A stretch of DNA of 64,000 bases, from the NCBI GenBank assembly GCA_947482825.1, contig CANKMT010000016.1, positions 1-64,000 on the forward strand, written 5' to 3'. The stretch is from Betaproteobacteria bacterium (GTDB taxonomy: Bacteria > Pseudomonadota > Gammaproteobacteria > Burkholderiales > SG8-39). The notes under the pieces were generated by a model. That model saw nothing but the letters and a program-made list of their open reading frames with translations. It ran no database searches and was not told the DNA's origin. Within the stretch, counting starts at the first letter, position 1, and every line of letters begins with the position of its first letter. Of the stretch, positions 34,997-39,648 are shown in pieces. Made by a program: the position numbers and the translations under genes.

Positions 34997-36976
34997 ATGT
35001 CCAAGAAAGCAGTCTACGACGCTTCATCGATCCAGGCCCTCAAGGGGCTCGAGCCCGTGCGCCGCATGCCGGGCATGTACACGCACACGATCCATCCGCT
35101 GCACATCGTCCAGGAGGCCATCGACAACGCGGTCGATGAGGCGCTTGCAGGCTACGGGAAGAAGATCACCGTAACCTTTCGCAAGGATAGCTCGGTCGAG
35201 GTCGAGGACGAAGGCCGCGGCATCCCGGTCGACATGCACCCGGAGGAAAAGAAGCCGGCGGTTGAAGTCGCGTTCACGATGCTGCATGCCGGCGGCAAGT
35301 TCTCGAAGTCGAGCGACGCGGTGTATCACATCTCCGGAGGCCTGCACGGCGTCGGCGTTGCGGTGACCAACGCGCTTTCGACGCGGCTCGAAGTCGATGT
35401 GTACCGCGACGGCGCCAAGCACACGATCGCGTTCGAAGGCGGCGAGCTGGTGCAGAAGCTCAAGTCCGAGCGCAGCAGGCAATACGCGGGCCGCACCGGC
35501 ACCGTGGTGCGCGCATGGCCGGACCCCAAGTATTTCGACAGCCCGAACATCCCGATGGTCGAACTCGAGCACCTGATCCGCTCGAAAGCCTACCTGCTGC
35601 CCGGCCTGACCACGGTCCTGCGCGTGGAAGGCAAGGAAGACAAGAGTTGGTTGTACGAGCGCGGCATGGCGCAGTACTTCGACTTCATGCTGCAGGGTCG
35701 CGAACTCGTCGCGCCGCTGTTCACCGGGGAGCGCCATTTCGACGAGAAGACGGCCGCGGACTTCGCCGACATCCAGGCGGGAGAAGGGGCCTCGTGGGCC
35801 ATCGGCTTCGTGCCCGATGGCGACGTGTTCCAGGACAGCCACGTCAACCTGATTCCCACCCGCTCCCACGGCACGCACGAGGCGGGCTTTCGCAACGGCA
35901 TCTTCGAGGCGATCCGCGCCTTCATGGAAACGCGCAGCTTGACGCCCAAGGGCGTCAAGCTGATCGCGGAAGACGTCTGGAGCCGCGCGTGCTTCACGCT
36001 CTCGGCGCGCATCGTGCGCACCCAGTTCCACGGCCAGACCAAGGAAAAGCTCACCACGCGCCATGCAGCCAAGCTGGTCGAGACCTGCGTGAAGGATGCT
36101 TACGAACTCTGGTTGAACCAGCACCCGGAGGACGGCAAGCGCATCGTCGAGCTTGCGATCGAGCAGGCCAACACGCGCCTGTCAAAAGGCAAGAAATTCG
36201 AGCGCAAGAAATCCTCGGGCGTCGCTACGCTGCCGGGCAAGCTCGTCGATTGCGCCTCGGACGACACTTCGCGCACCGAGCTGTTTCTCGTCGAGGGCGA
36301 TTCGGCCGGCGGCTCGGCCAAGGAAGCACGCGACAAGGACACCCAGGCGATCCTGCCTCTGCGCGGCAAGGTGCTGAACACCATGTCCAAGGACGCGCGC
36401 ACCGTGCTCGCCAACAAGGAGCTGCAGGCGATCGCCACTGCCATCGGTTGCGATCCCCACGGCATCGACGACAGCCCAGACCTTTCGGGCATCCGCTACG
36501 GCAAGATCGTGCTGATGACCGATGCCGACGTCGACGGGGGGCATATCCAGGCGCTGCTGCTCACGTTTTTCTTCATGCACATGCCGAAGATCGTCGAGAC
36601 CGGCCGCATCTGGGTCGCGCAGCCGCCCCTCTTCAAGATCGAGGTGCCGTCGCAGGGGAAGGGCAAGCCGGCGCGGCGCGTGTACTGCCTCGACGACGAT
36701 GAACTCGACGAGGCGCTGGCTGCGCTCAGGAAAGAGAAAGTGCGCGAAGGCAGCTGGGAGATCTCACGATTCAAGGGGCTTGGCGAGATGAGCCCGGAGC
36801 AGTTGTGGGAAACCACGATGAACCCGGATTCGCGGCGCCTGGTGCGCATGCAGCTCGACCGCGCGGACATCGAGCGGGTGCGCGGCAAGTTCGAGTTGCT
36901 GATGGATTCCGGGGAAGCGGAAGGAAGAAGGAACTGGATGCGGGAGCATTGGCGGACGGTGGAGGCGGATGTTTGA
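34997..36976 (+). CDS. parE: DNA topoisomerase IV subunit B
   Basis: The 659-residue ATPase subunit of topoisomerase IV, which decatenates daughter chromosomes. N-terminal GHKL ATPase motifs are seen: EAIDNAVDEALAGYGK near residue 38 and GLHGVGVAVTNAL near 115. The Toprim motifs are LVEGDSAGGSAKEARDKDTQAILPLRGK near 433 and MTDADVDGGHIQALL near 507. It lacks the roughly 165-residue insertion of proteobacterial GyrB, and parC lies downstream, so ParE is the right call. A short ggatag/ctatcc hairpin at 34960-34975 precedes the start. Confidence 0.97.
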   Translation: MSKKAVYDASSIQALKGLEPVRRMPGMYTHTIHPLHIVQEAIDNAVDEALAGYGKKITVTFRKDSSVEVEDEGRGIPVDMHPEEKKPAVEVAFTMLHAGGKFSKSSDAVYHISGGLHGVGVAVTNALSTRLEVDVYRDGAKHTIAFEGGELVQKLKSERSRQYAGRTGTVVRAWPDPKYFDSPNIPMVELEHLIRSKAYLLPGLTTVLRVEGKEDKSWLYERGMAQYFDFMLQGRELVAPLFTGERHFDEKTAADFADIQAGEGASWAIGFVPDGDVFQDSHVNLIPTRSHGTHEAGFRNGIFEAIRAFMETRSLTPKGVKLIAEDVWSRACFTLSARIVRTQFHGQTKEKLTTRHAAKLVETCVKDAYELWLNQHPEDGKRIVELAIEQANTRLSKGKKFERKKSSGVATLPGKLVDCASDDTSRTELFLVEGDSAGGSAKEARDKDTQAILPLRGKVLNTMSKDARTVLANKELQAIATAIGCDPHGIDDSPDLSGIRYGKIVLMTDADVDGGHIQALLLTFFFMHMPKIVETGRIWVAQPPLFKIEVPSQGKGKPARRVYCLDDDELDEALAALRKEKVREGSWEISRFKGLGEMSPEQLWETTMNPDSRRLVRMQLDRADIERVRGKFELLMDSGEAEGRRNWMREHWRTVEADV

Positions 36977-37071
36977 GAATGGTCGGCGTTCTTGTTGGAT
37001 CCCGAGCGATTTCTCAAAATGAGGAGATTGTAGAAAGGCAAAACCGGTAAGGCGTAACTCAGGAGAAGAAG

Positions 37072-37329
37072 ATGGCGCGCAGGACTAAAAAAGCCCTCTG
37101 GGAACGCGGCTATAAATCCCACTGCCTCTGGCGCGGCAAGGAAAAGCTCGCCAAGATCCGGCTCGAAGCCGATGCCGAGCTCAAATACGTATGGGAAGCA
37201 GCGGGGCGCACCGGCGAGTCCGGCACGCTCTCGGCGGCCAAGGCCGCCGCCGAGTACGCCTTGCTTCTCGCCGATCGACAACTGCCGCTCTTCGATTTCG
37301 AGGAGCCGCGGCTCCAGGCAACGAACTAG
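37072..37329 (+). CDS. Small protein between parE and parC with a clamp-binding-type motif
   Basis: The 85-residue basic protein is not assigned to a known family by me. It has a good ribosome site (aggaga) and starts 95 bp after parE; its stop is 3 bp before parC, so it is part of the same transcript. The N-terminal half is Lys/Arg- and Trp-rich (WERGYKSHCLWRGKEKLAKI), the middle is helical and Ala-rich, and residues 70-74 read QLPLF. This matches the QL(S/D)LF pentapeptide by which proteins bind the DNA polymerase beta clamp. A replication or segregation link is inference from motif and position. Confidence 0.8.
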   Translation: MARRTKKALWERGYKSHCLWRGKEKLAKIRLEADAELKYVWEAAGRTGESGTLSAAKAAAEYALLLADRQLPLFDFEEPRLQATN

Positions 37330-37332
37330 GAC

Positions 37333-39648
37333 ATGGACGACACCAACACCCTCGACCTCTTCTCGGCCGATTCCGGCGACGATTCCGCGCCGATCGAGCA
37401 GCACGCCGCACAGGCCTACCTCGGCTACGCGGTTTCAACCGTCAAGGCGCGCGCGCTGCCGGAGATCGCCGACGGCCTGAAGCCCGTGCAGCGCAGGATC
37501 CTGTATGCGATGGGCGACACCGGCGCCGACGGCTTCGCCAAGTGCGCGCGGTTCGTCGGCGAGGTGCTCGGCAAGTACCATCCGCACGGCGACTCATCGA
37601 CCTACGAAGCCATGGTGCACATGGCGCAACCCTTCTCGATGCGCTACCCGCTCATCGACGGGCAGGGCAACTTCGGCTCGCGCGACGGTGATTCGGCCGC
37701 GGCCTACCGCTATACCGAGGCGAAGCTCTCGCGCTACGCCGAGCTCATGCTCGCCGAGATCGGCGAAGGCACGGTCGACTTCATCAAGAACTACGACGGC
37801 AAGTTCGACGAGCCGCAGTTGTTGCCGGCGAGGATGCCGTTCGGCCTGCTCAACGGCTCTTTCGGCATTCCCGTAGGCTTTTCCACGCGCATCCCGCCGC
37901 ACAACCTGCGCGAAGTCGCGCTGGCCGCGGCGCTGGTCATCCGGAACCCTAAAGCGAGCGTGGACGATGTGCTCGCGCTGCTGCCCGGCCCGGATTTTCC
38001 CGGGGGCGGCCAGATCATTTCGAACGCCGCCGAGATCAGGCAGGCGTACGAGATCGGCCGCGGCTCGATTGCCATGCGTGCGCGCTGGCATGTGGAGCCG
38101 CTCGCGCGCGGCCAGTGGCGCATCGTCGTCGACGAGCTGCCGCACGGCGTTTCGTGCCGCCAGGTGCTTGAGGAAATCGAGGCCCTCGTGAATCCCAAGC
38201 CCGCCACCGGCAAGAAAGAGGTTTCGCAGGAGCAGAAGCGCCTCAAGCAGTTCGTGCTCGACATCGTCGAAACGGTGCGCGACGAATCGGACCGCAAGAG
38301 CCGCATGCGCATCATCATCGAGCCGCGCTCCTCGCGCCAGGACGCCGACGAAATGATGAAGGCGCTGCTGGTGCACACCAGTCTCGAGATGCGCTACCCG
38401 CTCAATCTCACCTGGCTGGGGCTCGATGGCCTGCCCGAGACCAAGGGCATCGTCGGCGTGCTGACGGAGTGGACCGGCTTTCGCATTGCCACGGTGAAGC
38501 GCAGAACACAGCATCGCCTGAACAAGGTCGAGGACCGCCTGCATATCGTCGAGGGCCGCATCAATGCCTTCGCCAGGATTGACGAGATCATCAAGCTGAT
38601 CCGCTCCTGCGACGACCAGGCCGAGGCCAAGAGGAAGCTCTCCGAGAAATGGGGCTTTTCCGAGCGGCAGGCCGAGGACATCGTCAACCTGCGCCTCGGC
38701 CAGCTCACGCGGCTGGACGGCGTCAAGCTCAATGAAGAGAAGAAGGGCCTCGAGCAGGACCGTGACGAACACCGGCGCGTCCTCGACTCGGAGCGCGTGC
38801 TGCGCAACCTCGTGGTCAAGGAACTGGAAGAGGACGCGAAGAAGTACGGTGACGATCGCCGGACGCTAATCCGCGCGGACGAGCGCACCCAGATCGAGCG
38901 TGCCGTGATCGAGGAGCCGGTCACCGTGATCCTGTCGAAGAAGGGATGGGTCCGCGCGCGTGTCGGCCACGGCATCGACCTCACGACGGTCAGCTTCAAG
39001 GATGGCGACGGCCTGGCCCAGTCGGCCGAATGCAAGACCACAGACCAGGTCGTGTTCCTCGGCTCGTCGGGCAAGACCTGGACGCTCGACGCGGCCAGCC
39101 TGCCCTCGGGCCGCGGCGACGGTGCGCCGGTCAACAGCCTGGTCAACGCCAACGGAGACGGCATTGTCTGGATGGGCACAGGCGCAATGGAACAAAGCCT
39201 CCTCCTGCACACCACGGCCGGTCACGGGTTCGTTGCACAGCTCAAGGACATGGTCACGCGCATGAAAGCAGGCAAGGAATTCATGAAGCCGGCCGAGGGC
39301 GCGCGCGTCCTGCCGCCGGCCCCGGTGGCGGACTTCAAGGGCGATGTGAGTCCGCGAGTGGCGGCGCTGTCCTCCGACGGCCGGTTGCTGGTGTTCCTGC
39401 TCGACGAAGTGCCGCTGCGCCCGAATGGCGGACTGGGAGTGCAGCTGATCGCGCTGCCCGACAATGTCACCCTCGCCGCGGTGGCTGTCACCGACGGCAC
39501 CAGCCTCACGCTCTCCGGCATGAAGCGCGGCAAGCGCCAGAGCGTGGAACTCGGCAAGAAGGAACTGCGCGAGTACGACGGCCGGCGCGCCCAGCGCGGC
39601 CGGGTGGCCGACGTGGGCCTCAAGGATGTCGATCTCCTGAGCAGCTAG
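37333..39648 (+). CDS. parC: DNA topoisomerase IV subunit A
   Basis: The 771-residue breakage-reunion subunit of topoisomerase IV. The N-terminal domain has [13 protein letters not shown], the quinolone-region helix [19 protein letters not shown] with wild-type-like Ser and Glu, and the active-site Tyr in [15 protein letters not shown] near residue 120. The C-terminal region (about 500-770) is a degenerate beta-pinwheel without a GyrA box, as expected for ParC. Residues 6-10 read TLDLF, close to a clamp-binding motif but without the Gln. It ends before a GC-rich hairpin. Confidence 0.97.

Follow-up and report, generated by a model that had tools for sequence, protein, structure and literature searches.

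The route by which topoisomerase IV is recruited to freshly replicated DNA is understood best in E. coli, where it runs via MukBEF. Hda, a partner of the sliding clamp DnaN, inactivates DnaA. The published consensus of clamp ligands is QL[S/D]LF or QxxLF, in which mutations at positions 1, 4 and 5 are the most harmful; B. subtilis PolC carries QLSLF at its C-terminus (PMC12309361). A revised version of the consensus reads Q-aliphatic-x-[L/M]-[F/L], and the look-alike QALRF of RecB did not bind the clamp (PMC13254535). SocB of Caulobacter and RipA of pneumococcus, two small proteins, act as toxins, and the mutations that suppress them map to the DnaN pocket (PMC12795458).

The locus described here belongs to a betaproteobacterium of the order Burkholderiales (GTDB family SG8-39). 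It was found in a stretch of 64,000 nucleotides of contig CANKMT010000016.1, called the window below, where a small gene separates parE from parC. In the reading that we prefer, with a probability of about 0.6, this gene encodes a clamp-borne accessory or adaptor protein whose Q-x-x-L-F tail sits in the DnaN pocket.

A small gene between parE and parC

The gene spans positions 37072-37329 of the forward strand and codes for 85 residues (MARRTKKALWERGYKSHCLWRGKEKLAKIRLEADAELKYVWEAAGRTGESGTLSAAKAAAEYALLLADRQLPLFDFEEPRLQATN). It starts 95 bp past the end of parE (topoisomerase IV subunit B, 34997-36976, forward strand, identified by tblastn of relatives), and a gap of only 3 bp separates its end from parC (subunit A, 37333-39648, forward strand). 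The Shine-Dalgarno sequence AGGAG, read directly at 37061-37065 on the same strand, lies 6 nt 5' of the ATG. An earlier note on this DNA had claimed a good ribosome site here, in agreement with this reading, and its positions for the ORF, for QLPLF (residues 70-74), for TLDLF in ParC (residues 6-10) and for the 3-bp gap are all correct.

The ORF is a genuine protein-coding gene, with homologues throughout its family. Within the genus its dN/dS is 0.12-0.19, which denotes purifying selection: third positions show 29-32 differences, first and second positions 4-14 each. The window is rich in long spurious ORFs, which speaks for a chance frame in a GC-rich intergenic gap, but that reading is refuted by the purifying selection, by the presence of the gene in 85 of the 98 family genomes and by its conservation at unlinked loci.

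In its own GTDB family, a search with a single sequence detected the gene in 36 of 37 genomes; 24 other families of the order gave no match. The 85 genomes cited above came from a 30-sequence profile; they include 40 of the 41 good-quality ones, with one full copy each. Outside the family, the same profile matched one genome in an order sample of 300 and, in a class sample of 369, none besides the window's own genome. A broader profile, run against a phylum sample of 299, returned only the same outside genome as the order sample. The named public records that hold the gene are uncultured Betaproteobacteria or Burkholderiales. Two metagenome bins, titled Nitrosovibrio sp. Nv4 and Bordetella parapertussis, also hold a small gene of SG8-39 type, and their names look wrong. 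In one genome a C-terminal fragment of the protein follows the full gene (G013:C50:23410-23487), with QLGLF retained.

Further copies, nearly all unannotated, were detected by tblastn on a plasmid of Cupriavidus malaysiensis, on the megaplasmid of Cupriavidus metallidurans and its relatives, and on ICE-like plasmids of Burkholderia glumae and B. cenocepacia. The ICE-like copies adjoin genes for ParB, DUF2857, PFL_4669, DUF3158 or a DNA methyltransferase. They carry QPDLF, are unannotated, and have ParB/DUF2857 and PFL_4669/DUF3158 genes around them. The Cupriavidus homologues possess an additional conserved N-terminal arm that begins with MQLDF. A phage origin was considered and rejected: the phage collection yielded no match to the protein, and viral contigs gave only partial matches of 20 residues.

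A conserved Q-x-x-L-F on a predicted flexible tail

QLPLF, at residues 70-74 of the protein (37279-37293, forward strand), had been singled out in the earlier note as a match to the clamp pentapeptide, and its homologues bear this out. Among 30 members with a mean column identity of 45%, Q70, L73 and F74 are invariant. They are so too in 90 of 90 distinct homologues, a set that takes in the Cupriavidus and ICE-type copies and reaches down to 26% identity, and in all 40 sequences kept by a 70% identity filter. In the homologue alignment, positions 69, 72 and 75 each vary with an entropy of about 2-3 bits. Invariant Q, L and F amid such free variation are what one expects of a short docking peptide. 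Conservation of the ORF and of its motif was the point on which the earlier note had staked its reading, and both are conserved.

The commonest forms are QLDLF, QLSLF, QLPLF, QLGLF and QMGLF, and QLRLF is also seen. They match QL[S/D]LF or QxxLF (PMC12309361) and mostly Q-aliphatic-x-[L/M]-[F/L] (PMC13254535); a few members with P or R at position 2 (QPDLF, QRDLF) fall outside the strict consensus. Two seeming exceptions were spurious, one protein having in reality QLQLF and a short fragment QLGLF. In the homologues, the motif is C-terminal or nearly so. The plasmid, chromid and ICE-like copies retain it at 26-38% identity, and several of them end exactly at its LF. Being present and conserved beyond its surroundings, the motif makes the protein a candidate sliding-clamp ligand.

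The AlphaFold2 model of the protein (mean pLDDT 81, 33 aligned sequences) contains five strands, at residues 8-13, 16-21, 24-32, 38-43 and 46-50, and a sole helix at residues 53-69 (37228-37278, forward strand) that leads into QLPLF. The motif itself falls in the low-confidence tail after the helix. A second model, of a relative, agrees, with five strands and one helix at a pLDDT of 82; in both, the pLDDT is about 50-72 across the last 10-15 residues. The clamp-ligand motif is thus predicted to be exposed on a flexible segment. The protein had been described as basic and helical: it is indeed mildly basic (16 K/R to 12 D/E, concentrated in the N-terminal third), but the model with its five strands does not make it helical.

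Five residues of the folded domain are invariant: W10, H17, Y39, W41 and E61. The protein matches no family in Pfam, NCBIfam or PHROGs and, as far as these go, its family is unnamed so far; the clamp ligand itself is already known. Neither by sequence nor by fold does the domain have a relative in the PDB. Foldseek against BFVD gave a weak likeness of predicted fold to gp8 of phage N4 and to other small phage proteins (E 0.01-0.04), which is one of simple small folds only. The N4 protein acts on the clamp loader; kinship with it was dropped, as gp8 has neither sequence similarity to the protein nor a Q-x-x-L-F.

One ordinary DnaN is encoded in the genome; its alignment to solved beta clamps covers the full length, and TDGHRLA, FPDYTRVIP and VVMPMR are retained. 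The Hda of this genome begins with MRQLVLEI, and so has a ligand-like QLVLEI at the N-terminus: clamp-ligand-like peptides therefore occur in a known partner in this genome, which serves as an internal positive control. A role of the small protein as a stand-in for a lost Hda was rejected, since Hda is present in the family alongside it.

Could the invariant Q-x-x-L-F bind another protein instead, or pack on the domain? Some look-alikes fail, as QALRF of RecB does (PMC13254535), and the assignment is made here by sequence only. We nevertheless regard such a role as improbable: the free variation at positions 69, 72 and 75 speaks against structural packing, model confidence is low past the helix, and most members match the canonical consensus exactly. 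Judged by its motif, the small protein is likely to bind the DnaN clamp.

Topoisomerase IV and the N-terminus of ParC

The order parE-small gene-parC, all on the same strand, occurs in about 37 genomes of many genera, the window's genus included; adjacent genes often overlap or stand a few bp apart. In the remaining genomes, which are more than half of the carriers, the gene lies between divergent ilvA and convergent uvrD, near fdrA, or elsewhere. No neighbouring gene is common to the parE/parC sites and the ilvA/uvrD or fdrA sites. A recurring ORF (C3) beside the group-B genes was taken for an antisense ORF, as it overlaps ilvA on the other strand, at the same distances. The protein tree splits along the line between linked and unlinked genes (support 100/99), on few columns and with long plasmid branches that are unstably placed; these branches apart, the genomes with the parE-small gene-parC order form essentially one side of it.

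The ParC proteins of these genomes are about 70-90% identical to that of the window. In other genomes of the same family the identity is only about 50%, as in other families. The closest topoisomerase IV from outside belongs to another family, f6; it is of the window's type, with a ParC 68-70% identical to the window's, and the short parE-parC gap of the one f6 genome examined lacks the small gene. The gene and the type of topoisomerase IV are therefore separable. Two ParC types coexist inside one GTDB family, and one of them is shared with f6, which hints at horizontal transfer of the topoisomerase IV operon.

The earlier note had proposed a clamp-bound partner of topoisomerase IV that tethers decatenation to replication forks. 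Its clamp half is strongly backed by the conservation of the motif and by the flexible tail; the tether to topoisomerase is not established. That the protein bridges ParC/ParE to the clamp, tying decatenation to the fork, is suggested by the gene order, which is kept, with all three genes on one strand, in many genera (about 37 genomes), by the grouping of the linked genes on one side of the tree, and by the N-terminus of ParC, which itself carries xxDLF. We consider this role unlikely nonetheless. More than half of the carriers belong to the other clade, where the gene lies beside ilvA/uvrD, fdrA or others and the motif is equally conserved; the plasmid and ICE-like copies adjoin other genes as well, and the f6 genome has a related topoisomerase IV with no small gene in its gap. 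Constant linkage to, or co-occurrence with, one parE/parC type, as for a topoisomerase IV accessory, was thus not what the linkage survey and the f6 genome gave. Moreover, an adaptor would be superfluous for ParC, which in much of the order has an N-terminal xxDLF of its own. In the window's clade a tether to topoisomerase IV is possible, but the evidence does not require it; the position between parE and parC may reflect insertion into a well-expressed operon.

The ParC motif of the window is TLDLF at residues 6-10 (37348-37362, forward strand), the form with T of a motif, [QT]x[DE]LF, that recurs at the N-terminus of ParC in the order. T-x-D-L-F stands at the start of ParC in every genome with the parE-small gene-parC order and a readable ParC start. 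In the family's remaining genomes, ParC carries sequences such as QNDLF or QKDLF at this place: 12 of the 13 fit [QT]x[DE]LF and the thirteenth has SGDLF, so that all readable ParC of the family start with xxDLF. In other Burkholderiales families, [QT]x[DE]LF was found in 40 of 73 ParC N-termini (21 with Q, 19 with T), a start codon being required within 15 codons upstream. Another 9 of the 73 have other forms of xx[DE]LF, and the remaining 24 include several near variants, e.g. QLNLF, QPGLF, QASLF, QLDMF and TLDMF. Elsewhere in the class, outside the order, [QT]x[DE]LF occurs in 1 of 29 ParC. The sample behind these counts is phylogenetically uneven, and its start codons are putative. A T at the first position deviates from the published clamp-ligand consensus. 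We found no published link between ParC and the clamp in the open-access papers searched.

The earlier note had mentioned TLDLF of ParC in passing; it merits more weight than that and may matter more than the small protein. A tentative extension, which we hold to be possible yet doubtful, is that topoisomerase IV of Burkholderiales is a clamp client through the [QT]x[DE]LF on a flexible N-terminal arm of ParC, which would tie decatenation to the clamps behind the fork. The operon of the window's clade would then add a second ligand, the small protein, giving a two-ligand coupling of decatenation to replication.

Proposed role and comparison with known clamp partners

For the small protein as a clamp-borne accessory, the following mechanism can be drawn. 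The hydrophobic pocket of DnaN is the most likely docking site for the Q-x-x-L-F of the flexible tail; docking there would bring the domain of five strands and one helix to replication forks or to clamps that remain behind them. Residues W10, H17, Y39, W41 and E61, together with the basic arm at the N-terminus, presumably make contact with DNA or with another protein. In the window's lineage, the protein would then assist chromosome replication constitutively, as an accessory or adaptor carried by the clamp. We infer the physical binding to DnaN, the partner of the folded domain and the physiological role alike. For this domain, which has no solved relative and belongs to no family in Pfam, NCBIfam or PHROGs, the mechanism is reached by inference.

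Competition offers another role: a solitary small domain armed with a strong ligand of the pocket could throttle replication or the exchange of polymerases, be it as a regulator or as a toxin. SocB and RipA provide the precedent at the DnaN pocket (PMC12795458), and the copies on plasmids and ICE-like elements point the same way. Such an inhibitor is quite unlikely here, for it fits badly with a single-copy core gene that 40 of the family's 41 good genomes contain; in one clade, moreover, the gene order suggests co-expression with an essential housekeeping enzyme. Nor was a fixed antitoxin-like partner of the gene seen: no neighbour is shared among its different sites.

Two directly testable predictions about bacterial clamp clients follow, one from the lineage-core small protein with its invariant clamp ligand and one from the clamp-ligand-like ParC N-terminus in much of the Burkholderiales.

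Among described systems, SocB and RipA are reported as small proteins acting on the DnaN pocket, as predicted here (PMC12795458); the likeness is drawn from these descriptions, and they are toxins, whereas the present gene is core, single-copy and has no evident antitoxin neighbour. Hda resembles the small protein in being linked to replication and in bearing a clamp ligand at one end, but it has an AAA+ DnaA-like domain, which the 85-residue protein, with no match in Pfam or NCBIfam, does not. From clamp ligands such as PolC the protein differs in having no polymerase, AAA+ or nuclease domain and no known fold relatives; what it shares with PolC (PMC12309361) is a Q-x-x-L-F at a flexible terminus, with Q, L and F invariant throughout its small family.
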